Shown here: positions 20,178-42,613 of the stretch, one piece after another
Layout: every line of letters begins with the position of its first letter
Position numbering within the stretch: the stretch's first letter is position 1
Source: Desulfurobacterium thermolithotrophum DSM 11699
GTDB taxonomy: Bacteria > Aquificota > Aquificia > Desulfurobacteriales > Desulfurobacteriaceae
Direction of reading: 5' to 3'
Assembly (NCBI RefSeq): GCF_000191045.1
Contig: NC_015185.1
Span: 564,501-628,500 of the forward strand
DNA length: 64,000 nt
The notes under the pieces: model-generated
What the model was told of the DNA's origin: nothing
The model's database searches: none
Seen by the model: the letters and a program-made list of their open reading frames with translations, nothing else
Translations under genes and position numbers: made by a program

Positions 20178-20200
20178 AAGGGGAGCTTTTAGCTCCCCTT
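20178..20200. terminator. Bidirectional terminator between dapD and gpmI
   Basis: Perfect 10-bp inverted repeat (AAGGGGAGCT / AGCTCCCCTT) with a 3-base loop, lying 3 bases after the dapD stop and including the gpmI stop codon. The stem can form in transcripts of either strand; U-runs after it are weak on both sides. Confidence 0.75.
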
Positions 20201-21769
20201 AACAATAACATCTCCTGTCATTTCTGGAGGAATTTTTTCTCCTAAGATATAAAGAATAGAAGGAGCAATATCTCCTAAAATTCCAATTACAGGAATTCCA
20301 TCAAATTCAGAAGGAAGTTCCACATCTTGTTTTTCTCTTCTTTTAACACCAAAAGAACCACATTTACCTGTAATAACAACAAATGGAACGAAATTTGTAG
20401 TATGAGCGGTCCAAGGGTTTCCAGTTTCAGGATCTATCATCTGTTCAGCATTGCCATGATCTGCCGTTACTATACAGGTTCCCCCTTTCATTAGGGTTGC
20501 TTTTACTACTTTTTTAAGACATTTGTCCACCGTTTCTATAGCATTTATAGCAGCTTCTAAGTTTCCAGTATGTCCTACCATATCTGGGTTGGCATAATTA
20601 AGAACTATAAGTTTGTAATCTCCATTTTCTATTCTTTCTACAACTTTATCAGTTACTTCATAAGCGCTCATTTCCGGCTTTTTATCATAAGTAGAAACTT
20701 TTGGTGATGGAACAAGAATTCTTTCTTCTCCTTTAAAAGGTTCTTCTTTACCACCATTAAAGAAATAGGTAACGTGAGCATATTTTTCTGTTTCGGCAAT
20801 TCTTAACTGTTTATACCCTAAGTTTGAGATAACTTCCCCAAGAACATTCTTTAAATCCTGGGGAGGATAGGCTATGTCAAAAGGAAAGGTTTCATCATAA
20901 AGAGTCATTGTTGCAACATATGACGGTTTAATAACTTTTTTCCTCTCAAAACCATTAAACTCAGGAATTGCCAAAGCAGAAACTATTTGTCTCATTCTAT
21001 CAGCTCTAAAGTTATAAAAGAAAAGAACATCTCCATCTTCTACAAGACAGTCTGGAGAAATAACGTAAGGTTTAACAAATTCATCTGTTTCTTCTCTTTC
21101 ATAGGCTTCAAAAAGAGCTCTTATTGGATCATCACATCTAAGCCCTTCTCCTAAAACTAACGCATCGTAAGCTTTTTCTGTTCTATCCCATCTTTTATCT
21201 CTGTCCATGTAGTAGTAGCGACCACCCATTGTGGCAATTTTTCCAATGCCAAGTTCATTGACTTTTTTGATAAGAGCTCTTAAGTACTTTTCAGCACTCT
21301 TAGGAGGAGTGTCTCTACCGTCAAGAATTGCATGAACACAAACTTTTTCTAATTCCTTTTTCTTTGCAAACTCAAGTAGTGCAAAAAGGTGCTCTATGTA
21401 ACTGTGTACACCTCCGTCAGAAAGAAGTCCTATTAAGTGTAACTTTTTCCCTTTTTTCTTAGCTGTTTCTATAGCTTTTTCTATAACAGGATTTTCAAAA
21501 AATTCACCGCTTTTTATTGACTTTGTAATCCTAACTATGTCCTGCCAAACTATTCTTCCAGAACCAATGTTCATATGACCTACTTCTGAGTTTCCCATTT
21601 GTCCTTCCGGAAGACCTACAGCTTCACCTGATGCTGCAAGCAGACCTCTTGGATATGTTTCCCATAGATAATCCCAAAAAGGAGTATTTGCTAAGGCAAC
21701 TGCATTCCCTTCTTTCTTTGGATTGTACCCAAAACCATCTAAAATTATAAGAGTTACAAACTTAGCCAT
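20189..21769 (-). CDS. gpmI: 2,3-bisphosphoglycerate-independent phosphoglycerate mutase
   Basis: Interconverts 3- and 2-phosphoglycerate in glycolysis and gluconeogenesis with two Mn ions. The 526 residues carry LIILDGFGYN with the first metal Asp, the catalytic Ser in GNSEVGHMNIGSGR near 62, LLSDGGVHSY, DGRDTPP, NYANPDMVGHTGN and TADHGNAEQM near 440. It is the last gene of the long minus-strand operon; the gap to truA is 32 bases with a GGAGAG ribosome site. tpiA in the same operon is also glycolytic. Confidence 0.96.
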   Translation of the reverse strand: MAKFVTLIILDGFGYNPKKEGNAVALANTPFWDYLWETYPRGLLAASGEAVGLPEGQMGNSEVGHMNIGSGRIVWQDIVRITKSIKSGEFFENPVIEKAIETAKKKGKKLHLIGLLSDGGVHSYIEHLFALLEFAKKKELEKVCVHAILDGRDTPPKSAEKYLRALIKKVNELGIGKIATMGGRYYYMDRDKRWDRTEKAYDALVLGEGLRCDDPIRALFEAYEREETDEFVKPYVISPDCLVEDGDVLFFYNFRADRMRQIVSALAIPEFNGFERKKVIKPSYVATMTLYDETFPFDIAYPPQDLKNVLGEVISNLGYKQLRIAETEKYAHVTYFFNGGKEEPFKGEERILVPSPKVSTYDKKPEMSAYEVTDKVVERIENGDYKLIVLNYANPDMVGHTGNLEAAINAIETVDKCLKKVVKATLMKGGTCIVTADHGNAEQMIDPETGNPWTAHTTNFVPFVVITGKCGSFGVKRREKQDVELPSEFDGIPVIGILGDIAPSILYILGEKIPPEMTGDVIVKGS

Positions 21770-21801
21770 ATTTCTCTCCTTTTTCTAAATGAAAATTGTT
21801 C

Positions 21802-22554
21802 TCAATAAGAATAGTTATCATAGTAGACTTTTTCAAGATATAGTCCATCAGGAGGTGCCAAAAAAGGAGCAAACTTTCGGTTTTTCTTTTCTCTTATTTC
21901 CTTAATATCTTCAGGTCTAAGCTTTCCTTTTCCAACTTCAACTAAAGTAGCAACCATAATTCTTACCATATGTCTTAAAAAGGATCTTCCATAAAAAATG
22001 AAATCAATGTGAGATTCTTTTTTTACTATTTCGATATTATCCACAGTTCTAACAGGATTTATATCTACATTTCTATCGGATTTAGAAAAAGAAGTGAAAT
22101 CAAACGTTCCTATCAAGAATTCCTTTGCTTTTTCCATCAAAGAGATGTCAAGCTGATAAGGAACAAACCACGAACGTTTGTATTCAAAAGGAGAAGGAAC
22201 TTTTCTATTAAAAATCCTATATCTATATCTTTTTCCTTTAGCCCATCTCCTTGAGTCAAACTCTAAGGGAACTTCTTCAACAGAGATAATCTTTATATCT
22301 GGAGGTAAAAGACCGTTTAATGCAGATTGTAATTTGTAAAGAGGTATTTCTTTTTTCGTTTTAAAATTTGCTACTTGTCCAAAAGCATGAACTCCTGCGT
22401 CAGTTCTGCTTGCACCAGTAAGCTTTACTGGATGCTGTAAAATTCTTTCAAGAACTTTTATAATTTCACCTTGAATTGTTGGTTTTTCAGGAAGAATTTG
22501 CCATCCAAAGTAATTAGTACCAAGGTATTCAATGGTCAATTTTATATTTTTCAT
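21802..22554 (-). CDS. truA: tRNA pseudouridine synthase A
   Basis: Forms pseudouridine at positions 38-40 of tRNA anticodon arms. The 250-residue protein has the catalytic Asp in GASRTDAGVHAFGQVANF near residue 52 (family GRTDAGVHA), and the C-terminal SFLRHMVRIMVATLVEVGKG signature. Its ATG overlaps the glnD stop by four bases. Confidence 0.95.
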   Translation of the reverse strand: MKNIKLTIEYLGTNYFGWQILPEKPTIQGEIIKVLERILQHPVKLTGASRTDAGVHAFGQVANFKTKKEIPLYKLQSALNGLLPPDIKIISVEEVPLEFDSRRWAKGKRYRYRIFNRKVPSPFEYKRSWFVPYQLDISLMEKAKEFLIGTFDFTSFSKSDRNVDINPVRTVDNIEIVKKESHIDFIFYGRSFLRHMVRIMVATLVEVGKGKLRPEDIKEIREKKNRKFAPFLAPPDGLYLEKVYYDNYSY

Positions 22555-31237: not shown

Positions 31238-31258
31238 TCTTTCTAATCATTAAGTATG

Positions 31259-31278
31259 GGCACCTTAAGAAAGGTGCC
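31259..31278 (+). terminator. Terminator after hsp20
   Basis: Perfect 8-bp inverted repeat GGCACCTT / AAGGTGCC with loop AAGA, 21 bases after the hsp20 stop. The T-run that follows is interrupted, so termination may be partly factor-dependent. Confidence 0.65.
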
Positions 31279-31287
31279 TATGTAATT

Positions 31288-31382: not shown

Positions 31383-31425
31383 GACTATTTAATAAAAATT
31401 ATTCTTATTAAGATGAAAAAAAGTT

Positions 31426-31454
31426 TTGACATTGCGTGATTTTGGTATTAAACT
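31426..31454 (+). promoter_or_regulatory. Promoter of the suf-superoxide reductase operon
   Basis: Perfect -35 TTGACA at 31426-31431, 17-base spacer, -10 TAAACT at 31449-31454 (four of six), 27 bases before the sufC ATG. A GGAGG ribosome site follows at 31471-31475. No clear operator palindrome is visible. Confidence 0.55.
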
Positions 31455-31480: not shown

Positions 31481-32230
31481 ATGGCACCAATCCTGGCAAT
31501 TAACAATGTAAAGTTAACTATTGATGAAAAATTAATTCTTAAGGGAATAAATCTAATTGTCAGAAAAGGAGAAATTCACGCCATTTTAGGTCCAAACGGT
31601 GCAGGGAAATCAACTCTTGCAAAGCTCATTATGGGAATTGATAATCTGAAAACTCCAACAGAAGGGGAAATTGTCTTTGATGGAAAGATTATTAATGGTC
31701 TTGAGATTTATGAAAGAGCAAGGCTCGGAATAACTCTTGCTTGGCAAGAACCTGCAAGATTTGAAGGAATAACCATAGAAGAGTACTTAAAACTCTCTGG
31801 GAAAAATAATCCAAATGTTGATATTAAGAAATGTCTAGAGAAAGTAGGTTTAGTTCCTGAGCTCTACCTTAAAAGGTATGTTGATGAGTCTCTTTCTGGT
31901 GGAGAAAGAAAGAGAGTAGAGCTGGCAAGCATTCTTGCTCTCAAACCCAAGTTTGTAATTCTTGATGAAATAGACTCAGGAATTGACTTTACCTCAATAG
32001 AGGATATTCAAAAAATTTTAGAAACTATGAGAGATGAAGGAATAACAATCTTAATGATTACTCACAACGAAAAACTTCTTGACGTTGCTGATAGAGCTTC
32101 CTTACTATGTGCTGGAAAGGTTCTTGATACGTCAGATCCTCAAACCATAAAGAGAAAGTTTGAAGAATGTAAAGTTTGTGATGTGTTAGACTTTGAATTA
32201 AAGGGGGAAAAAGATGGAAAAGATAGATAA
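31481..32230 (+). CDS. sufC: SufC-type ABC ATPase of Fe-S cluster assembly
   Basis: Cytoplasmic ABC ATPase that drives Fe-S scaffold assembly. The 249 residues show Walker A LGPNGAGKSTLAK near 38, the SufC-type Q-loop region TLAWQEPARFEGI, signature SLSGGERKRVE near 140, Walker B FVILDEIDSGID and the H-loop MITHNEKLL. It overlaps the downstream SufB-like gene by 17 bases. With only one SufBD-type partner and no SufS, SufE, SufD or SufU nearby, this is the two-gene SUF-like minimal (SMS) layout known from anaerobes and archaea. Confidence 0.9.
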   Translation: MAPILAINNVKLTIDEKLILKGINLIVRKGEIHAILGPNGAGKSTLAKLIMGIDNLKTPTEGEIVFDGKIINGLEIYERARLGITLAWQEPARFEGITIEEYLKLSGKNNPNVDIKKCLEKVGLVPELYLKRYVDESLSGGERKRVELASILALKPKFVILDEIDSGIDFTSIEDIQKILETMRDEGITILMITHNEKLLDVADRASLLCAGKVLDTSDPQTIKRKFEECKVCDVLDFELKGEKDGKDR

Positions 32231-33137
32231 ACTTCTAAATAATATCCTTTCTTTAGGATTGCCAGAAGATGTACTTAAAAATCCTTCTATTGTCATTGAA
32301 GGGCATAAAGTTGTTAAGGAAGTTCCTTATCCAGGAATTCTGCTTGAAAAAAAGGTTTTAGATGACAGAATAAAAGTTAGCTTAAAAGTTCTTCCAAATA
32401 TTACAGTTGAGAAGCCAGTCCATATGTGTCTTTCAAAACTTAGTCCAGGAGATCAACTTATTGATATTACTATAGATATTGGCGAAAACTCAAAAGTAAA
32501 GATGGTTTCCCATTGTGCCTTTAAGGGTAAGAATATCAAACACATAAGTAGAACTAATTTTAGAGTAAGAAAAGGAGCTTCTCTTGAAGTTTCTGAAATT
32601 CACTATCACGAGAAGGATATAGATATTTTAATAGACGCTAAGTCAGAAGGTGTAGTAGAAGAAAAAGGTTCCTATAAGAGTCTTTTCAAAATAGATTCAA
32701 ATAATGCAGGAAAGGTCAGAATAGAATACACCGTTGACATTCTTGACTATGCAACTGCAGATATTGAAACAAAAATAGCAGGAAGAGATGGAGATGATAT
32801 ATATGTGAAAGATATCATGTATCTAAAAGGTAAGTACTCTAAAGCTATAGCTAAGAGTAGATTAATGGCTCTTGGCAACACTAAAGCTGAGTTTTACGGA
32901 GAAACTTATGGATTTGGAGATTACTCAAGAGGTCACATTGACTGTTCAGAAATAGTAAGAGGCAATGAAGTTACAGTAAAAGCTATTCCTATAGTTGTTG
33001 TTAATAACGAAACTGCAAAAGTAACACATGAGGCTGCTGTTGGTAGCATTGATAAGAAACAACTTGAAACCTTGATGGCAAAAGGACTTGACGAAGACGA
33101 GGCTGTTGACGTAATTGTTAAAGGAATGCTAGGGTAA
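32214..33137 (+). CDS. sufB: SufB/SufD family Fe-S scaffold protein, short form
   Basis: Partner and presumed scaffold for the SufC ATPase. At 307 residues it is much shorter than canonical SufB (about 470) and corresponds mainly to the beta-helix core plus the C-terminal SufC-binding part: GDDIYVKDIMYLKGKYSKAI, HIDCSEIVRGNEVTVKAIP, ETAKVTHEAAVGSIDKKQLE and LMAKGLDEDEAVDVIVKGML. The Cys in HIDCSEIV and His in VTHEAAVG match positions implicated in cluster assembly in SufB/SufD. Likely a homodimer with SufC, as SmsB (inference). Confidence 0.88.
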   Translation: MEKIDKLLNNILSLGLPEDVLKNPSIVIEGHKVVKEVPYPGILLEKKVLDDRIKVSLKVLPNITVEKPVHMCLSKLSPGDQLIDITIDIGENSKVKMVSHCAFKGKNIKHISRTNFRVRKGASLEVSEIHYHEKDIDILIDAKSEGVVEEKGSYKSLFKIDSNNAGKVRIEYTVDILDYATADIETKIAGRDGDDIYVKDIMYLKGKYSKAIAKSRLMALGNTKAEFYGETYGFGDYSRGHIDCSEIVRGNEVTVKAIPIVVVNNETAKVTHEAAVGSIDKKQLETLMAKGLDEDEAVDVIVKGMLG

Positions 33138-33164
33138 TAACCATTTAAATATAAGGAGAGAAAG

Positions 33165-33500
33165 ATGAAAGTATTTGGTCCAGAACCAGAAGGCAAAAGA
33201 AAACATACACCCGTAATTGAAGCACCTGCAAAAGTAAAAAAGGGTGAGTGGTTTGATGTAAAGGTTGTTGTTGGTAAGGATATTGCACATCCAAATACAA
33301 AAGAACATTGGATTGCGCATATATCCCTTTGGGCTGGAGACTTCTTGGTAGCAAAAGCAGATCTTGAACCTGAAAAGGCTGCATCAGAAGTTATTTTTAA
33401 AGTAAAACTTGAAGAAACAACAACCCTTACTGCCCATGCATACTGCAATCTTCACGGCCTCTGGCACAGTGAAGAAGTAACCGTAGAAGTTGAGGAATAA
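33165..33500 (+). CDS. sor: Superoxide reductase (neelaredoxin type)
   Basis: Reduces superoxide to peroxide without making oxygen, an anaerobe defence. The 111-residue protein has the iron site of neelaredoxin: His14 (RKHTP), His42 (AHPN), His48 (EHWIAH), Cys94 and His97 (YCNLHGLW). The Glu that normally precedes Lys-His (EKHVP in Pyrococcus and Archaeoglobus proteins) is Arg12 here, so the usual sixth ligand is missing. No desulforedoxin domain is present. It is 27 bases downstream of sufB and closed by a hairpin, linking it to Fe-S assembly under oxidative stress. Confidence 0.92.
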   Translation: MKVFGPEPEGKRKHTPVIEAPAKVKKGEWFDVKVVVGKDIAHPNTKEHWIAHISLWAGDFLVAKADLEPEKAASEVIFKVKLEETTTLTAHAYCNLHGLWHSEEVTVEVEE

Positions 33501-33504
33501 TTTC

Positions 33505-33524
33505 TGGCGCCCTTACGGGCGCCA
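33505..33524 (+). terminator. Terminator after the suf-superoxide reductase operon
   Basis: Perfect 8-bp GC-rich inverted repeat TGGCGCCC / GGGCGCCA with loop TTAC, starting 4 bases after the superoxide reductase stop. No long U-run follows. Confidence 0.7.
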
Positions 33525-33801
33525 TCAAATTGGCTTAGGTGAAATGGGCTTAAGGAATAAGAAAAAGAGAAAGAATCTTGATAGCGTTAATGTTTGTTAG
33601 TTACGCTACTGTGTGTTATATTGATTTTTCGAAGATAAGCTTAGGAATAACTATCTTTTTGAGAATTTCTCTTCACAGTTATTGTATTCCTTGGCTTTGA
33701 CAAGTTGTAGTGTATAGAGTTAGATATAGAACAGGTTGGAAGATTTTTGATATACTTCACACAAAGTAATTCGTTTTCGAACGATTGCAGGAGCCTAAAA
33801 G
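33525..33801 (+). other. Intergenic region before the restriction-modification genes
   Basis: A/T-rich stretch without a credible reading frame. A TTGACA lies at 33697-33702 and TAGATA at 33721-33726 (18-base spacer, weak -10), which could serve mod. The base composition shifts here toward that of the island. No attachment site, tRNA end or direct repeat marking an integration point was found. Confidence 0.4.
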
Positions 33802-36384
33802 ATGAAAATAGAAAGAAAAGTTTATGAAGAAAAATTTTGGAATATACTTGAGGATTTATTTGCAGGAGCAGAAGTAGAAGGTAAAAGTGGATATGTAAAT
33901 CTTCTGAAGGTAAAAAGAAAATATTTTAAAAATTATTTAAAACCAAATCTCTTAGAGTATATAGACAAGCAGTTAAAAGATTTTCCAGATTTTAAAGAAG
34001 AACTCTATCAAAAACTATATTCATTCTTTCACAGATATTTTTCTGAAACAGGAAGTATATATTTTTCATACACACCGCTTTACTACAAGATATACGATAA
34101 AGTTTATAAAAACGAAGGAAAGAAAGAAGTTTACTTTAAGCCAAGTGAGTTTGATTCCAATACAGATTTTGAACAAATCTTATCAGATAAAGAAGATGTA
34201 AGCCTATTTTGGAAAACGCATATGCTTTATTACATAAAAACAGACAAAATAATTCGTTCCATGAAAGTAGAAATACCAGAAGAAGCATTAACTTTTTACT
34301 TTGACGCATCAGAAATAGAACTAAAAAAAGCAAATGAAAAAAAACAGTTAATTTATGAATTAAAAGAAGTAAAAGAAGATGGAACTATAGTATTAAAAGT
34401 TTTATATTCCGAAAGAGGAAAGAAAACAAAAGAAAAAGAAATAATAAAGCAGGTAAAAAAAGTATACAAACACTCAAGATTGACAGAAGAATATCTAAAT
34501 AAAGCAATAAAAACCTTTGAAAAACAGGCAAATGTAGATTACTTCATAAACAAAAATGCAGAAAAGTTTTTAAAAGAACAGTTTGATTTATGGATGTATC
34601 AGTATCTCTTTTCACAGGAAGCAAGTTTTGATTTAAAAAGATTCCAAGAGCTTCAAGCATTAAAGAATATAGCTTATAGGATAATAGAGTTTATAGCACA
34701 ATTTGAAGATGAATTAAGAAAGATATGGGAAAAACCAAGATTAGTATTTAACTCAAACTATGTAATAACACTTGATAGAATAGCAAATAAAGAAGAAGGA
34801 AAAGAAATTTTAGAAGAAATAATAAGCCAGTTAAAAGAGCAGGAAAAAGAATTTAAAAAGAGTATAAACCAGTTAAAGAAGATAAAAGAGAATTACAAAT
34901 CTTATAAGGAAAGATTTGAGAATCATCAAATAAAAAATCAATTAGAGGAATGGTATTTATTAGACATAATAGAAGAAGGTTTTGGAGTAGATGGGATATT
35001 AAAAAATGGTGAGTTAAACGAAAAATGGAAGTTTTTACCTGTTGATACAAAATACTTTAATGGATTAAAAGAAAAAATAGAAGAAATATTTGACATAGAT
35101 GAAGAGTTAGATGGAAGATTAATAAAAAGTGAAAACTGGCAAGCATTAAATACAATACTGCCAAAGCATAAAGAAAAAATACAAACTATTTATATTGACC
35201 CGCCGTTTAACAAAGAGCAAGAAGCAGATTATTACTATAATGTGAATTATAAAGATTCTACTTGGATAACAATGCTTGAAAATAGAATTTCTTTAGCTAA
35301 AGAGTTATTGAATGAAAAGGGAAGTATTTTTGTAAGATGTGATTACAATGGAAATATGTATGTAAGAATGCTTTTAAATGAGATTTTTGGGAAGGAGAAT
35401 TTTAGAAATGAAATAGATATTAAAAGAAACCAATCTTTACCTAAAACAGGAGATGTTAATTTAATAGAAGAAACAGAAAATCTTTATGTATTTGGTAAAA
35501 CAAATAAGTTTTATTTTATAAACCAATTGATGGACAGAGAAAAACCAAAATGGGTGGATCTAGGGACTCGTCCATCAGATGTAGAAGATAATCCTCCAAG
35601 AGTAGTGGAAGGCAAAGAGTTTTATCCTCCAAAATACAGGAGATGGGCATATTCGCAGGATAATATTGATGAGATGTATGCTAAGGGAAGATTAAAAATA
35701 GAAAATGGAAAAATTAAGATATTATTAGACAAGAGAAAATTAGGAAGTAATTGGACAGATATTCCTGGATATTCTACAGTTCCGACTTGGGGATTTAAAA
35801 CCGAAAATTCGGAAGTATTACTCAAAAGAGTTATCCAATCAACCTTAAACGAAAGAGATATAATCTTAGACTTCTTCCTTGGATCTGGAACAACAACAGC
35901 AGTAGCACATAAGTTAAAAAGAAAATGGATAGGAGTAGAGCTTGGGGAACATTTTTACTCAGTAATACTACCAAGGATGAAAAAAGTTTTATTCTATGAC
36001 AAATCAGGCATAAGTAAAGATAAAGATGTAAAAGAACTATATAATGATAAAAAGGCAGGTGGATTTTTCAAGTACTATGAACTTGAGCAGTATGAAGATA
36101 TATTAAAAACAATAGAATATGCAGACATAGATGTAGAAGAATATTATGAAAAATTAGCTAATGTTTTAGGAGAAGATTTTAAATCTTCAAAAGCAGAGCC
36201 ATTTATATTTGATAAAAAATTAGCAAGAGTTGTTGATGAAGAAGGTAATATAAATATACAGAACCTATATCCAGATAAAGAAATAGACATTGCAGAAAGT
36301 ATATCAAATGTATTAGGAATAAGCTTTAATCAAGCAAAAGAAAATATAAACAACAAAACTTTAGCAAAACTATTAAACATTTAA
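33802..36384 (+). CDS. mod: Type III restriction-modification DNA methyltransferase (Mod), N-terminally extended
   Basis: Adenine-specific methyltransferase of the beta class and the recognition subunit of the type III system. Motif IV is DPPF in IYIDPPFNKEQEADYYY near residue 464 and motif I is FLGSGTTTAVAHKLKRKWIG near 691, in the beta-class order with the target region between them. At 860 residues it is longer than typical Mod (600-650): about 400 residues precede LIKSENWQALNTIL, the segment that usually lies near residue 60-100. That extension is Lys/Glu-rich and helical, of unknown role. Codon use is strongly A-rich (many AAA, ATA), unlike neighbours, pointing to horizontal gain. res follows after 10 bases. 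Confidence 0.9.
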   Translation: MKIERKVYEEKFWNILEDLFAGAEVEGKSGYVNLLKVKRKYFKNYLKPNLLEYIDKQLKDFPDFKEELYQKLYSFFHRYFSETGSIYFSYTPLYYKIYDKVYKNEGKKEVYFKPSEFDSNTDFEQILSDKEDVSLFWKTHMLYYIKTDKIIRSMKVEIPEEALTFYFDASEIELKKANEKKQLIYELKEVKEDGTIVLKVLYSERGKKTKEKEIIKQVKKVYKHSRLTEEYLNKAIKTFEKQANVDYFINKNAEKFLKEQFDLWMYQYLFSQEASFDLKRFQELQALKNIAYRIIEFIAQFEDELRKIWEKPRLVFNSNYVITLDRIANKEEGKEILEEIISQLKEQEKEFKKSINQLKKIKENYKSYKERFENHQIKNQLEEWYLLDIIEEGFGVDGILKNGELNEKWKFLPVDTKYFNGLKEKIEEIFDIDEELDGRLIKSENWQALNTILPKHKEKIQTIYIDPPFNKEQEADYYYNVNYKDSTWITMLENRISLAKELLNEKGSIFVRCDYNGNMYVRMLLNEIFGKENFRNEIDIKRNQSLPKTGDVNLIEETENLYVFGKTNKFYFINQLMDREKPKWVDLGTRPSDVEDNPPRVVEGKEFYPPKYRRWAYSQDNIDEMYAKGRLKIENGKIKILLDKRKLGSNWTDIPGYSTVPTWGFKTENSEVLLKRVIQSTLNERDIILDFFLGSGTTTAVAHKLKRKWIGVELGEHFYSVILPRMKKVLFYDKSGISKDKDVKELYNDKKAGGFFKYYELEQYEDILKTIEYADIDVEEYYEKLANVLGEDFKSSKAEPFIFDKKLARVVDEEGNINIQNLYPDKEIDIAESISNVLGISFNQAKENINNKTLAKLLNI

Positions 36385-36394
36385 GGTGATAACT

Positions 36395-39367
36395 ATGGCA
36401 ACAAAATTAAAAGCACAGCCTTATATAAAACTACAACAAATAGCCGAAGAAATAGAAATAAAAAATCCAAACTGGGATATATTAGATAACACATTTTCAA
36501 CACAAAAAACATTATTTGACTATCAACAGCAAGCACTTGAAAATGCATTAAAGATATTATGGAAATACTTTGAAGACTTACAGGAAAACAAAGAAGAATT
36601 TGCAAAAATATATAAAGATTTAGATATATACGAAGACTTACATATAAAACTAAAAGGAAATAAACACGCAGAATTGTTAAAAGAATTTTTCAATGTAGAA
36701 ATAGACAATAAAGGTAATGAATACATACCATTTAGCGAAATTTCAAACAGAATGTCATTTTGGATGGCAACAGGAAGTGGAAAAACACTAATCATAGTAA
36801 AACTAATAACACTACTTCATAAACTAATGAAACTTGGACTAATTCCTAAAAAAGAAATAATGTTTCTAACCTATAGACAGGACTTACTTAAAGCATTTAA
36901 AAAACATGTAGAAGAATACAATCAAGGAAAATCACTTGAAAATCAAATAAAGCTAATCTCATTAAAAGATTATGAAAAAGAAAAAAATCAAAAAGACTTT
37001 TCAAACAGAGTATTTATTTACAGGTCAGATTTAATATCAGATGAAAGAAAAGAAAACATACTAAACTTTAGAGATTATTTAGAAAACCAAAACGAAAAGC
37101 TAATAGGAAATTGGTATTTAATATTAGATGAAGCACATAAAGGAGACTCACAAGAAAGTAAAAGACAGAATATATTTTCAATCCTAACACAAAAAGGTTT
37201 TTTATTTAACTTTTCTGCAACGTTTACAGAAGCTATTGATATAGTCTCAACAGTTTACAACCTTAACCTAAACGAATTTATAAATAAAGGATATGGTAAA
37301 CAGATATACGTATCAAATGAAGAAATAAATGCATTTAAAGAAAAATCAGATTTTAACGAGAAAGCAAAAAGAAAAATAATCTTAAAGAACCTAATAAACC
37401 TTACAGCAGTAAAAAAAGCATACGAAAAGATAAAAGATGAAAACCTATATCACAATCCATTATTAATATTTTTAATGAATTCAGTAAACACAAAAGACGC
37501 AGATTTAAAATTAGTATTTAAAGAATTAGCCAAAATCGGAAAAAATATAGACCAAAATTTATTTAATGAAGCCAAAAATGAACTAATAGAAGAATTTAAA
37601 AATGCAAAATACACACTTGGAGAAGGAAGCTACACATTAGATTTTATAAATGAGTTTGTAGAAAAGATAGATAAAAATCATATTTACCAATATGTGTATA
37701 ACTCAAGCACAGGTGGGAATATAGAATACATAATAAATCCAAACCAGAAACAAGAAATAGCACTAAAACTTGATACATCAGATAAACCATTTGCACTTAT
37801 AAAAATAGGTGATATATCAAAATGGATAAAAGAAAATCTAACAGAATATAAAGAAAATGAAAGCTATGAAGAAAAAGGATATTTTGAGAACCTAAACAAT
37901 CCAGATAGTCCAATAAACATACTACTTGGAAGTAGAGCATTTTATGAAGGATGGGATAGCAATAGACCAAACATAATTACCTTTATAAACATAGGAACAG
38001 GAACAGATGCAAAAAAGTTTGTTTTGCAAGCAATAGGTAGAGGAATAAGAATAGAACCTTTACCAAACCAAAGAAAAAGATTAGATAGATTAGCAGTTAA
38101 CAATCAATCATTAAATCAAAAATTGGAAGAATATAAAAAAGAGATAAAAACATTAGAAACCCTTTTAGTATATGCAACAAACAAAAAAGCAATAGAAACA
38201 ATACTAAAAGAATTAGAACTTGTAAAAAAATCTGAAGGATTTGAAGAAGTATCCTTATGGAAGAATGAAAGGATAAAAAAAGAAAACCTATTATTGCTAA
38301 TACCTTCATATGCAAAAAATAAAGAAAAAATAATAAATCAAGCCTATCCTGTTAAGTTTAGAATGAGTAAAGAGAATTTAGACATTTTAAAAATATACTT
38401 TCAATTAATGCCAGTAGAAAGGTTTATACTTGAATATGAAACAGATATTGAAACCTATAACTCATTAAAAAAGATAGTAGAAGAAAGTAACAAATACATA
38501 GCAATAGATAAAAACAGAAACTATAAAGATATAAAAATGCTTATAAATTCACTTATAAATCATATAAATGCCGAAACAGAAGACTTTAATGAGTTTATAC
38601 CTGTAAATGACAAAATAGTCCATTTTAGAAAAATAAAAGTTAGAAATGATTATAAGGATAAGTTTGTAAAAGCAGTAGAAAAAGTAAAAGATAGCGATGT
38701 AAATAAAGCTAATATCATAAAGGAAACTCTAAAAGGACAGGGAATTGAAGGAAATATAATTGAAAACACTATAAAATCATTACTACAGCAAGAAATAGAT
38801 GATGTAAAAATAAGAAAACTATTACAGCACTATTACATACCAATTATCTACACTAAAGAAAAAAAAGACTGGATAAAACATATAATCAACATAGAAAGTG
38901 AATATGACTTTATCGCAAACCTATTAGAAATAATAGATGACATAGATAAGCATTACGATTGGTGGATGTTTAGTAAATTAGATGAGCATTTAGATAAAGA
39001 GATTTATATACCTTATGTGAACCAAGGAAAAACAAAAAAATTCATTCCTGATTTTGTTTTTTGGTTAAAAAAAGGAAATGACTATAAAATTTTATTTATA
39101 GACCCCAAAGGTAGTGTATATTCTTCATATTTAGAAAAAATAGATGGATACAAAAGCATATTTGAAGAAAATGGAAAACCAAAAACATTTAGAATAAATA
39201 AAGGAAATTCAAACCTAAACGTAAAAGTAGATTTAAAACTTTACACAAAAGACACGGTTTCCGCTATAGCAGGAACAGAATATAAAAAATACTGGATAGA
39301 TAAGAAAAGTATGAAAAATGTTTTTATCACGTCCTCTAAATCATTGAATAGCCAAAGTACAAAGTAA
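36395..39367 (+). CDS. res: Type III restriction enzyme Res subunit (helicase-nuclease)
   Basis: ATP-dependent translocating restriction subunit. The 990 residues show superfamily 2 helicase motifs: Walker A MATGSGKTLIIVKL near 125, DEAH box LILDEAHKGD near 244, motif III FSATFTEA near 275, YEGWD near 517 and motif VI QAIGRGIRIEP near 545. The C-terminal PD-(D/E)xK-like nuclease reads FIPDFVFWLKKG then ILFIDPKGS (about 883-905). ATG 36395 is chosen because AAGGTGA (36383-36389) is its ribosome site; a longer frame from GTG 36386 would run through it. A-rich codon use matches mod. Confidence 0.9.
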   Translation: MATKLKAQPYIKLQQIAEEIEIKNPNWDILDNTFSTQKTLFDYQQQALENALKILWKYFEDLQENKEEFAKIYKDLDIYEDLHIKLKGNKHAELLKEFFNVEIDNKGNEYIPFSEISNRMSFWMATGSGKTLIIVKLITLLHKLMKLGLIPKKEIMFLTYRQDLLKAFKKHVEEYNQGKSLENQIKLISLKDYEKEKNQKDFSNRVFIYRSDLISDERKENILNFRDYLENQNEKLIGNWYLILDEAHKGDSQESKRQNIFSILTQKGFLFNFSATFTEAIDIVSTVYNLNLNEFINKGYGKQIYVSNEEINAFKEKSDFNEKAKRKIILKNLINLTAVKKAYEKIKDENLYHNPLLIFLMNSVNTKDADLKLVFKELAKIGKNIDQNLFNEAKNELIEEFKNAKYTLGEGSYTLDFINEFVEKIDKNHIYQYVYNSSTGGNIEYIINPNQKQEIALKLDTSDKPFALIKIGDISKWIKENLTEYKENESYEEKGYFENLNNPDSPINILLGSRAFYEGWDSNRPNIITFINIGTGTDAKKFVLQAIGRGIRIEPLPNQRKRLDRLAVNNQSLNQKLEEYKKEIKTLETLLVYATNKKAIETILKELELVKKSEGFEEVSLWKNERIKKENLLLLIPSYAKNKEKIINQAYPVKFRMSKENLDILKIYFQLMPVERFILEYETDIETYNSLKKIVEESNKYIAIDKNRNYKDIKMLINSLINHINAETEDFNEFIPVNDKIVHFRKIKVRNDYKDKFVKAVEKVKDSDVNKANIIKETLKGQGIEGNIIENTIKSLLQQEIDDVKIRKLLQHYYIPIIYTKEKKDWIKHIINIESEYDFIANLLEIIDDIDKHYDWWMFSKLDEHLDKEIYIPYVNQGKTKKFIPDFVFWLKKGNDYKILFIDPKGSVYSSYLEKIDGYKSIFEENGKPKTFRINKGNSNLNVKVDLKLYTKDTVSAIAGTEYKKYWIDKKSMKNVFITSSKSLNSQSTK

Positions 39368-40886: not shown

Positions 40887-41492
40887 TTATTGCCTTTTGC
40901 CTATTTGAATTCTCAACATTTTCTCTACATATTTCCCAATAATATCAAACTCCAGATTGACAATATCACCTGGCTTTCTAAACTTCAGGGTTGTGTTCTT
41001 ATAGGTGTGAGGAATAACAGCAACTGAAAAAGTATCTGCAAAAAGAGTTGCTATTGTAAGACTTATTCCGTCAATTCCAATAGAACCTTTTTCTACAACT
41101 AAATGTCTGTATGCTGGTGGCAGTTTGAAAGAAAATAAAAATCCTGTTCCTTCTCTTTTTATCCCTACTACCTTTGTTATAGTGTCAACATGCCCCTGTA
41201 AGATATGTCCACCAAGACGATCAGAAAATCTTAAAGCTCTCTCAAGATTCACAAAATCGTTGGTTTTCAAGATTCCAATATTACTTCTTCTTAAAGTTTC
41301 AGCAGAAACATCAAAAGTAACAGAGTCTTTTTCAAAAGAAACAACAGTTAGGCAAACGCCATTAACAGAAATACTATCCCCGATTTTTATATCCTCTGTT
41401 ATCTTTTGACATCCGATCTTTAAAACAGCAGATTGAGAACTCTTTTTCAAGGAAAGAACTCTTCCTACTTCTTCCACTAAACCTGTAAACAT
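40887..41492 (-). CDS. ribE: Riboflavin synthase alpha subunit
   Basis: Dismutates two lumazines to riboflavin. The 201-residue protein starts MFTGLVEEVGRVLSL and has two similar lumazine-binding halves, each with a signature: ISVNGVCLTVVSF near 47 and IGIDGISLTIATL near 145, plus GHILQGHVDT near 97. ATG 41492 with GGAG at 41498-41501 is chosen over an upstream start inside the IS110 end. Its natural upstream region is interrupted by the IS110 element only about 14 bases before the ATG. Confidence 0.95.
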   Translation of the reverse strand: MFTGLVEEVGRVLSLKKSSQSAVLKIGCQKITEDIKIGDSISVNGVCLTVVSFEKDSVTFDVSAETLRRSNIGILKTNDFVNLERALRFSDRLGGHILQGHVDTITKVVGIKREGTGFLFSFKLPPAYRHLVVEKGSIGIDGISLTIATLFADTFSVAVIPHTYKNTTLKFRKPGDIVNLEFDIIGKYVEKMLRIQIGKRQ

Positions 41493-41512
41493 TTTTTCTC
41501 CTATGAAAGATG

Positions 41513-42613
41513 TCAACCCCCAACACAGAGGTTGCATTTATTTTCAACAAAATCCATAAATTGCCTTCTCTCTCTCAAAACTGCGAACATTACTTTAACC
41601 AATTTCCTCGCCGCAGCTATCAGCGCTTTCTTCTTCTCTAAACCTTTCTTAACTAACCCTTCGTAAAATCTTTTAACTGAATTGTCTAACTTGCTGTTCA
41701 ATAACGCTCTCGTAGCCTGGATAATCTTGTTCCTCGTTCTGCTGTCCCCTTTCTTTGTTATCCTTCCATTTCTAACTTCGTCTCCACTGCTATTAACACG
41801 AGGAACAAGTCCAAAATAAGCCGCTACCTTGTCTCCGTTTTCAAACCTCTCTTCGTTACATACGGCAGATATAAAGGCTATAGCTACTATATCTCCTACT
41901 CCAGGTATGCTTTTTAGAAGTTCTACTTTTCCCTTAAGCTCCTCATCTTCTCCTATAAAACTCTTGATATCTTCTTCTGTCTCTCTTATCTTATCTGTTA
42001 AGTATTCTATTGTTTCTATTTGCCTCCATATCGTTTCTCGTAATGACGGAGGCACTTTCTTCTTCGTTTCTTCCTTTATCCTTTCCATCCCTTTCTTCGT
42101 GGTGAGTTCTCTCTTGTTTGTCTTTATCCCATATTCAAGCAATAGGCTATGAAGTCTGTTAATTACCCCTTTTCTCATATCTACAAAGCTATCTCTCTCT
42201 TTCATCTTTATCCTTAGCTCTTTTTCTTTTCTCGTCGGGACGTAAACTGTCGGAAGTAAGCCCATTTCATAGTAAATGGCTATCGTTTCTGCATCTATCC
42301 TGTCGTTTTTAGCACTGTTAACACCTTTTAGAATGTTCTTAAATTTGTTAGTGTTAACGTAAGTTATTTCATCAACGCAGTTCCTTATCTCCTCCGTAAA
42401 AAATGTTACTCCTGTTAAGGTTTCTACCGCAACTTTTACTGAATATCCTTTTTTCCTAAAAGTTGTTAGGTGATTTTTAAATTTCTCTAACTCTTCTGCT
42501 TCGTACTTCTTGGTATTAAGTATCCCTGTCAGACAATCTAAATAAGCTGCTGTAAAGCTGTTTTTGTGGTAGTCCACTCCGACATACAGTGTTTTCTCTA
42601 CCTTCTCCTTCAT
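41513..42613 (-). CDS. IS110-family transposase/recombinase (DEDD)
   Basis: RNA-directed recombinase of 366 residues from ATG 42613, which has a GGGGG ribosome site. The RuvC-like DEDD domain shows YVGVDYHKNSF near 10, VAVETLTG near 60 and NDRIDAETIA near 105; a coiled coil follows, then the Transposase_20 domain with LLKSIPGVGDIVAIAF and the catalytic-Ser region NGRITKKGDSRTRNKI near 300. The reading frame stays open upstream to 42820, but that part is the structured leader, not protein. The stop codon lies in the element end. Confidence 0.92.
   Translation of the reverse strand: MKEKVEKTLYVGVDYHKNSFTAAYLDCLTGILNTKKYEAEELEKFKNHLTTFRKKGYSVKVAVETLTGVTFFTEEIRNCVDEITYVNTNKFKNILKGVNSAKNDRIDAETIAIYYEMGLLPTVYVPTRKEKELRIKMKERDSFVDMRKGVINRLHSLLLEYGIKTNKRELTTKKGMERIKEETKKKVPPSLRETIWRQIETIEYLTDKIRETEEDIKSFIGEDEELKGKVELLKSIPGVGDIVAIAFISAVCNEERFENGDKVAAYFGLVPRVNSSGDEVRNGRITKKGDSRTRNKIIQATRALLNSKLDNSVKRFYEGLVKKGLEKKKALIAAARKLVKVMFAVLRERRQFMDFVENKCNLCVGG

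Follow-up and report, generated by a model that had tools for sequence, protein, structure and literature searches.

What builds iron-sulfur (Fe-S) clusters in Desulfurobacterium thermolithotrophum, and why do the genes that seem to do so stand beside one for a superoxide reductase (SOR)? The type strain is described as an anaerobic sulfur reducer that does not grow under microaerophilic conditions (PMC3368423). We analyzed a 64,000-nucleotide stretch of its DNA (the window), positions 564501-628500 of the genome's single contig of 1,541,968 bases; feature coordinates below are window positions. Open reading frames and hidden Markov models place three genes at 31481-33500, all on the + strand: smsC, smsB, and a class II SOR gene, sor. 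An earlier note on this DNA had taken the first two for a two-gene SUF-like minimal system (SMS). Proposed as the ancestor of SUF, SMS is best known in its two-gene kind from archaea. That assignment is supported by the fold of SmsB, by the cysteines of SmsC, and by family searches of the genome, which found neither another scaffold nor a desulfurase. The best explanation of the locus as a whole, and one we consider probable, is a single unit, smsC-smsB-sor, that joins the sole scaffold found with the cytoplasmic SOR of a strict anaerobe under a Fur-family box.

SmsB matches SUFBD_core at 66.6 bits and the sufB model TIGR01980 at 58.4 of 346.4 bits. A profile built from 13 Aquificota SmsB proteins retrieves MJ0034 of Methanocaldococcus jannaschii (E 1.2e-80). 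The top structural match of the SmsB model (pLDDT 90.9) is M. jannaschii SmsB (9h78_B; TM 0.85/0.90, 41% identity), with Escherichia coli SufB and SufD ranking below. Against NCBIfam NF052511 (SUF_like_SmsB, 445 positions) the protein scores 52.5 bits where the curated cut-off is 650; because that model describes a longer SmsB, we do not count the score as evidence on the short kind.

Its partner SmsC falls under the cut-off of the sufC model TIGR01978 (184.1 versus 212.8 bits), and among solved structures it is closest to MJ0035 of the M. jannaschii SMS complex (E 7.4e-68, 232 bits), the next being a SufC at 152 bits. The ABC ATPase motifs GPNGAGKST, LSGGE, LDEIDSG, and H195 are present and, except at one position, invariant in 12 rows. 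M. jannaschii SmsC is reported to hold a [4Fe-4S] cluster by C218, C239, and C242 (PMC12192291). C210, C230, and C233 of the window protein align with these residues with a one-residue gap (20 residues separate the first two cysteines in M. jannaschii, 19 in D. thermolithotrophum) and are invariant in 12 Aquificota rows spanning both SmsCB versions described below. In the SmsC model a helix runs from 220 to 236 and residues 232-249 have pLDDT under 50; as modeled, the low-confidence tail after 232 fits the flexible tail described in M. jannaschii.

The analysis covered 136 Aquificota genomes, comprising the Desulfurobacteriaceae (n = 22) and the families f2 (n = 2), f5 (n = 7), and f3 plus f4 (n = 105). 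All 21 Desulfurobacteriaceae SmsC have the pattern C-x(18-24)-CxxC, as do 7 of 7 from f2 and f5 and those at 48 of 53 other SMS loci; these 53 were drawn from a ranking by similarity to the window SmsB and so are not a random sample. One paper describes the SmsC cluster motif as largely absent from bacterial homologs (PMC12584684), while another already places some bacterial SmsC among predicted cluster binders (PMC12192291). Judged by sequence, the former statement fails for the SMS-type bacteria examined and the latter agrees with our counts. The methanogen-type cluster site is thus common among the bacterial SMS loci examined.

The D. thermolithotrophum genome encodes one SUFBD protein. No NifU_N domain (IscU/NifU/SufU family) was found in it at E 0.01 by a search that matches 12 of 14 controls, and family searches gave neither an Nfu (only 5 of 14 controls match) nor an A-type carrier (9 of 14). 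PF00266 has five matches in the genome, each best placed by NCBIfam in an enzyme family other than cysteine desulfurase: aspartate-glyoxylate aminotransferase and aspartate aminotransferase, both under the cut-off, and HisC, SelA, and DapC, all over it. The earlier note had seen no cysteine desulfurase nearby, and this extends to the whole genome, as the family search, which did not extend to TusA, rhodaneses, or cysteine desulfidase, recognized none among these five matches. The note had also proposed looking for other Fe-S systems, and had named a complete sufBCDSU elsewhere as part of what would refute its reading. The genome family searches gave no full SUF system (SufD, desulfurase, SufU; SufE was not searched) and no ISC, NIF, or MIS (an IscU/NifU/MisU scaffold with a desulfurase). 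Mrp has one strong match, at 336 bits. Because IscU/NifU, Nfu, A-type carriers, and desulfurases all went unfound, SMS is probably the only general Fe-S scaffold of this genome.

Across the Aquificota sample, SUFBD is encoded in 29 of 136 genomes: 21 of the 22 Desulfurobacteriaceae, both f2, six of the seven f5, and none of the 105 f3 and f4 genomes. NifU_N is found in 98 of those 105 versus none of the 31 others. The best PF00266 match has an E of 2e-44 or lower in 100 f3 and f4 genomes, with the remaining five reaching only 8.8e-27 to 1.2e-36. Among the 31 genomes of the other families it ranges from 1.4e-37 to 8.6e-12 in 28; at 1e-10 two genomes lack a match, and G126 alone reaches 2.9e-46; matches were identified protein by protein in D. 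thermolithotrophum and G126 only. The genome of G126 (85% complete, 3% contamination) codes for a SufS-like PLP protein (L050:1931-3277) that has an RAGCSC motif; by eye, the genes ahead of it look glutamate synthase-like.

The order smsC-smsB-sor is unbroken in all 21 Desulfurobacteriaceae genomes with a SUFBD match, a recurrence that argues against chance. With first start codons, smsC and smsB overlap in the family by 1 to 38 nucleotides (17 in the window) and 21 to 78 separate smsB from sor (27 in the window, where sor has its own ribosome site). No SOR gene lies 3' of smsB at the seven f2 and f5 loci with room after smsB (eight loci in all), and eight of nine f2 and f5 genomes encode one elsewhere. 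Taking all loci outside the Desulfurobacteriaceae (other phyla, f2, and f5), none of the 63 with at least 1 kb after smsB has a SOR beside it, nor does any of the 68 in total, even at E 10. The three genes are predicted to form a single transcription unit. Of the hairpins on either side (Table 1), the upstream one probably ends the hsp20 transcript and the downstream one that of smsC-smsB-sor. The terminator scan reported no terminator, these hairpins included; hairpins without a T run may represent a terminator style of D. thermolithotrophum, a thermophile. We ruled out hsp20 as a member of the operon, as 243 nucleotides including the hairpin intervene and an hsp20 match is found at none of the 11 other family loci compared.

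The -35 element of the smsC promoter is TTGACA at 20 of the 21 family loci and TTGACT at one, with an AT-rich -10. The promoter scan of the window alone was no better than shuffles (13 found versus a mean of 10.9), so the promoter rests on its conservation in the 21 genomes. At a fixed spacing to the -35 is a block with the consensus TAATAATGATTCTCAATAAG over the 21 loci, which looks like a Fur/PerR operator. Such operators are heptad inverted repeats near TGATAAT-n-ATTATCA. With a matrix from the 20 other sites, the block before smsC in the window scores 20.0 bits, second in the 64 kb on both strands, the third being 12.6; with each genus left out in turn, scores of the 21 sites range from 7.8 to 24.4 bits. 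Scanning f2 and f5 loci gave no box of at least 12 bits before smsC, and in some 454 kb from other SMS loci no site reaches 14 bits. A strict Fur-box consensus with up to three mismatches was discarded in favor of the relatives' matrix, as it gave 5 window matches versus 9.5 expected and missed the smsC site. The strongest smsC-type box in the window (21790-21809, 25.4 bits) overlaps the end of a truA-like gene, just before a phosphoglycerate mutase-like gene on the - strand (20189-21769).

All 22 Desulfurobacteriaceae genomes code for Fur-family proteins, 21 of them for two. Both D. thermolithotrophum proteins, encoded at 934 kb and 56 kb of the genome, score best with PerR models and align an Asp to the metal-binding Asp of Bacillus subtilis PerR; the nearest solved relative of type 1 is a PerR. 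The type 1 gene has a box of 12 bits or more before it at 5 of 15 loci, that of D. thermolithotrophum included (17.6 bits), compared with none of the 22 rows for type 2, in which one gene appears twice, making type 1 the better candidate for the regulator. The same threshold is reached in 22 of 2000 random 310-nucleotide stretches of the window. The position of the box may be compatible with either repression or activation.

Table 1. Features of the smsC-smsB-sor locus, in window coordinates
Feature	Position	Strand	Description
Hairpin 3' of hsp20	31255-31282	+	-17.5 kcal/mol, z -4.86; without T run
Fur/PerR-type box	31393-31412	+	TAAAAATTATTCTTATTAAG; 13 nt upstream of the -35; equally spaced block in 21/21 family loci
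Promoter	31426-31454	+	TTGACA-17-TAAACT; promoter scan, conservation in 21 loci
smsC	31481-32230	+	249 aa, ABC-type (SufC-like) ATPase, C-terminal C210/C230/C233
smsB	32214-33137	+	307 aa, SufB/D core, beta-helix and C-terminal helical hairpin
sor	33165-33500	+	111 aa, class II superoxide reductase, neelaredoxin type
Hairpin 3' of sor	33498-33532	+	-18.2 kcal/mol, z -3.72; without T run

The SOR matches PF01880 at 106 bits and TIGR00332 above its cut-off. In 14 of 14 rows the protein is 110-111 residues long without a desulforedoxin domain, and the iron ligands H14, H42, H48, C94, and H97 are invariant together with K13. The class II loop motif is EKHxP (Glu-Lys), with EKHVP seen in one solved putative SOR; in all 14 rows the loop reads RKH, the Lys being kept and an Arg replacing the Glu. 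Class II SORs have a single-iron His4Cys site without an Fe-S cluster. As the SOR carries no cluster, SMS is not needed to build it, which counts against the suggestion in the earlier note that the pair matures the reductase pathway. A second, Tat-type SOR of the genome adjoins ATP synthase-like genes and has RKHTP in place of EKHxP. In Thermovibrio ammonificans, of the same family, a SOR, either the linked or another copy, is reported from the proteome (PMC5441870).

We propose that SmsC and SmsB would form an SmsC2B2 complex taking up Fe2+ and free sulfide, the latter plentiful in a sulfur reducer. A [4Fe-4S] cluster would be built on C210, C230, and C233 of SmsC and passed to clients directly or possibly via Mrp. 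A Fur-family regulator, most likely the PerR-like protein encoded at 934 kb of the genome, would act at the box, and oxidant or iron stress would then raise cluster building and superoxide removal together; the H2O2 made by SOR could itself act as a signal. The simplest reading is one of joint supply, in which cluster-damaging oxidants would raise both repair capacity and superoxide removal. Co-induction of smsCB with sor, as the earlier note had put forward, is likely given the conserved operon and the shared promoter with its Fur/PerR-type box, while co-transcription itself stands as a prediction.

Several observations weigh against a stress-controlled unit built on the sole scaffold. The best PF00266 match of the genome also scores 58 of 377 bits with a "cysteine desulfurase family" model, far less than the 313 of its aminotransferase match. 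G126, an SMS genome, encodes a 448-residue protein resembling SufS-type desulfurases (147.7 of 475.1 bits) and stands as an unexplained exception. D. thermolithotrophum has its second SOR (L185:1474-1920, about 1.2419 Mb), of 148 residues with a Tat-like signal sequence. On the side of regulation, omitting their own genus lowers two boxes to 7.8 and 9.7 bits, and the box heptads look closer to Fur boxes than to PerR boxes. The PerR-model scores of both regulators are below every curated cut-off, the nearest solved relative of type 2 is named Fur, and 10 of 15 type 1 genes lack a box of at least 12 bits. Repression is also not obvious, because the box lies upstream of the -35. Finally, smsCB (there named sufCB) is reported to be deletable in Methanosarcina acetivorans (PMC10500019); unlike D. 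thermolithotrophum, that organism has a NifU_N match in our control search.

SMS could instead be constitutive and essential, with sor riding on a strong promoter and the box tuning the unit to iron, not oxidants. The Fur-like look of the heptads when set beside consensus forms, the status of SMS as the only scaffold found, and the rare need a strict anaerobe may have for SOR all suit this account. We nevertheless hold it to be unlikely, though worth keeping in view, since smsB has sor behind it in all 21 family genomes despite varying flanks and smsCB versions and both Fur-family proteins of D. thermolithotrophum score best with PerR models. That SmsCB is a stress or repair system, with bulk clusters made via Mrp or chemically from Fe2+ and sulfide, strikes us as improbable. 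No other scaffold family was found in the genome, and the split between SUFBD (29 of 31 genomes versus 0 of 105) and NifU_N (98 of the latter 105) is the pattern of a replaced housekeeping system, even though the homologous pair is reported dispensable in M. acetivorans (PMC10500019), Mrp is encoded, and smsCB shares its operon with SOR. The constant adjacency of smsB and sor could also mean that smsCB serves SOR, by delivering iron or by protecting or loading its iron site, the linkage being a maturation module. We give this very little credence: by its ligands the SOR has one mononuclear iron and no cluster, and SOR genes are also found where SMS is missing, in f4 genomes, as well as away from smsB in f2 and f5 and at a second place in D. 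thermolithotrophum.

Keeping to the joint unit of scaffold and SOR under a Fur-family box, a wider account of the Desulfurobacteriaceae can be offered tentatively. Their sole Fe-S machine would be a sulfide-fed SMS placed under oxidative-stress control through the SOR operon and a PerR-type box, the smsCB half having been swapped beside a fixed sor, with one genome caught half way. This would be a bacterial answer to oxygen other than the six-gene SUF.

The swap refers to two versions of smsCB. A-type SmsB is 42-44% identical to the window SmsB, which is B-type, whereas sor is 81-92% identical in 14 rows. The A and B versions split the genera g1 and g3, the monophyly of each being rejected (p-AU 1e-39 and 1e-27). 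In one genome, G121, an A-type smsB that has a promoter of its own and lacks a preceding smsC is followed by a B-type smsC-smsB and sor. This locus can be read as an unfinished replacement, or as what is left of a tandem pair that different lineages lost in different ways. The orphan A-type smsB of G121 (L036:7017-7961) is intact, retains a box-like block, and lies directly upstream of the B-type pair. In the sor tree, constraining the six B-type SORs to one group is not rejected (p-AU 0.37), so this tree is too weak to decide in-place replacement, and transfer of the whole operon within the family may also be compatible with it.

The SmsB tree holds 77 of the 105 rows collected, MJ0034 among the 77, after removal of duplicates, of four g2 rows that were nearly identical, and of ten rows (one archaeal) that were short or very divergent. 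Its 25 Aquificota rows are one clade (support 100), apart from MJ0034 and other phyla. In the SmsC tree (78 rows of 99, MJ0035 included), B-type and f2 SmsC group together (99) inside an Aquificota clade (99). A transfer of SMS from archaea into the Aquificota lineage is unsupported, given the single Aquificota SmsB clade in a tree where archaea are poorly sampled (one locus plus MJ0034) and long branches meet.

SMS in bacteria is already known, and the distribution table of the founding SMS paper (Garcia, 2022) may list it in Desulfurobacteriaceae. The literature searched, with partial coverage, holds no report of an smsC-smsB-sor operon with such a box. The main text of a chemostat study of D. 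thermolithotrophum HR11 does not mention superoxide, Fe-S, iron-sulfur, SufB, desulfoferrodoxin, or rubrerythrin (PMC12724263). Among known systems, M. jannaschii SMS (MJ0035-MJ0034) is alike in gene order and SmsB fold, and the organism is likewise described as having Mrp and no desulfurase or A-type carrier (PMC12192291). D. thermolithotrophum differs in being bacterial, in the sor that follows in the operon, in the Fur/PerR-type box, and in an SmsB that is 41% identical. The SufB2C2 of Methanococcus maripaludis and Methanothermococcus thermolithotrophicus is also described as two proteins with a CXnCXXC cluster site in SufC (PMC12584684). Thermococcus kodakarensis SmsBC is an SMS without SufD reported to form clusters from ferric and sulfide ions in vitro; however, its SmsB is long and of another clade, and the organism has a cysteine desulfurase (PMC12442378). 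An Fe-S gene beside one for an oxidant-removing enzyme is described in Leptospira interrogans, where sufB adjoins ahpC and both are peroxide-induced, but there the sufB is isolated, a putative suf cluster lies elsewhere, and the enzyme is a peroxiredoxin instead of a SOR (PMC7567364). For the question of how an SMS cell copes with oxygen, the operon offers, in a type strain with a closed genome, a bacterium with SMS as its seemingly sole scaffold plus superoxide defence and a stress-type switch. It makes testable whether a sulfide-fed SMS can run a bacterial cell and whether SMS is stress-induced.

The flanks of the operon differ between the window and its relatives, so sor and smsC-smsB are kept together while their neighbors vary. 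At 11 of 11 other Desulfurobacteriaceae loci compared, a gene (c3) is divergent from smsC, and at the 10 reached by the contig two more genes stand behind it. This block (weak TrkA-like, CPA2 antiporter-like, and weak B12-radical SAM) is not in the 18 kb of window compared. Downstream, ribE directly follows sor in four relatives. In the window ribE is at 40893-41534 on the - strand, and 33802-39367, between sor and ribE, holds two genes, for proteins of 860 residues (weak adenine methyltransferase match) and 993 residues (helicase-like by eye, without an NCBIfam match), a probable two-gene restriction-modification system.

MnmA was of no use as an independent sign of a sulfide economy. PNPCxxC and a third Cys are present in all 19 proteins sampled, out of 126 genomes with a match, whether or not a desulfurase is present. 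Among these MnmA genes (L166-L184), a loop with a C...CC motif occurs in 8 of 8 sampled f3 and f4 proteins and in 0 of 11 from the Desulfurobacteriaceae, f2, and f5. The PF03054 scores divide nearly along this loop split, at 165-207 bits for the proteins lacking the loop versus mostly 230-275 for those having it, with three lower. Upstream of mnmA, in a stretch without an evident gene, a box-like block (L166:241-260, 17.7 bits) lies beside a TTGACA and is followed by a GC-rich repeat with a T run.
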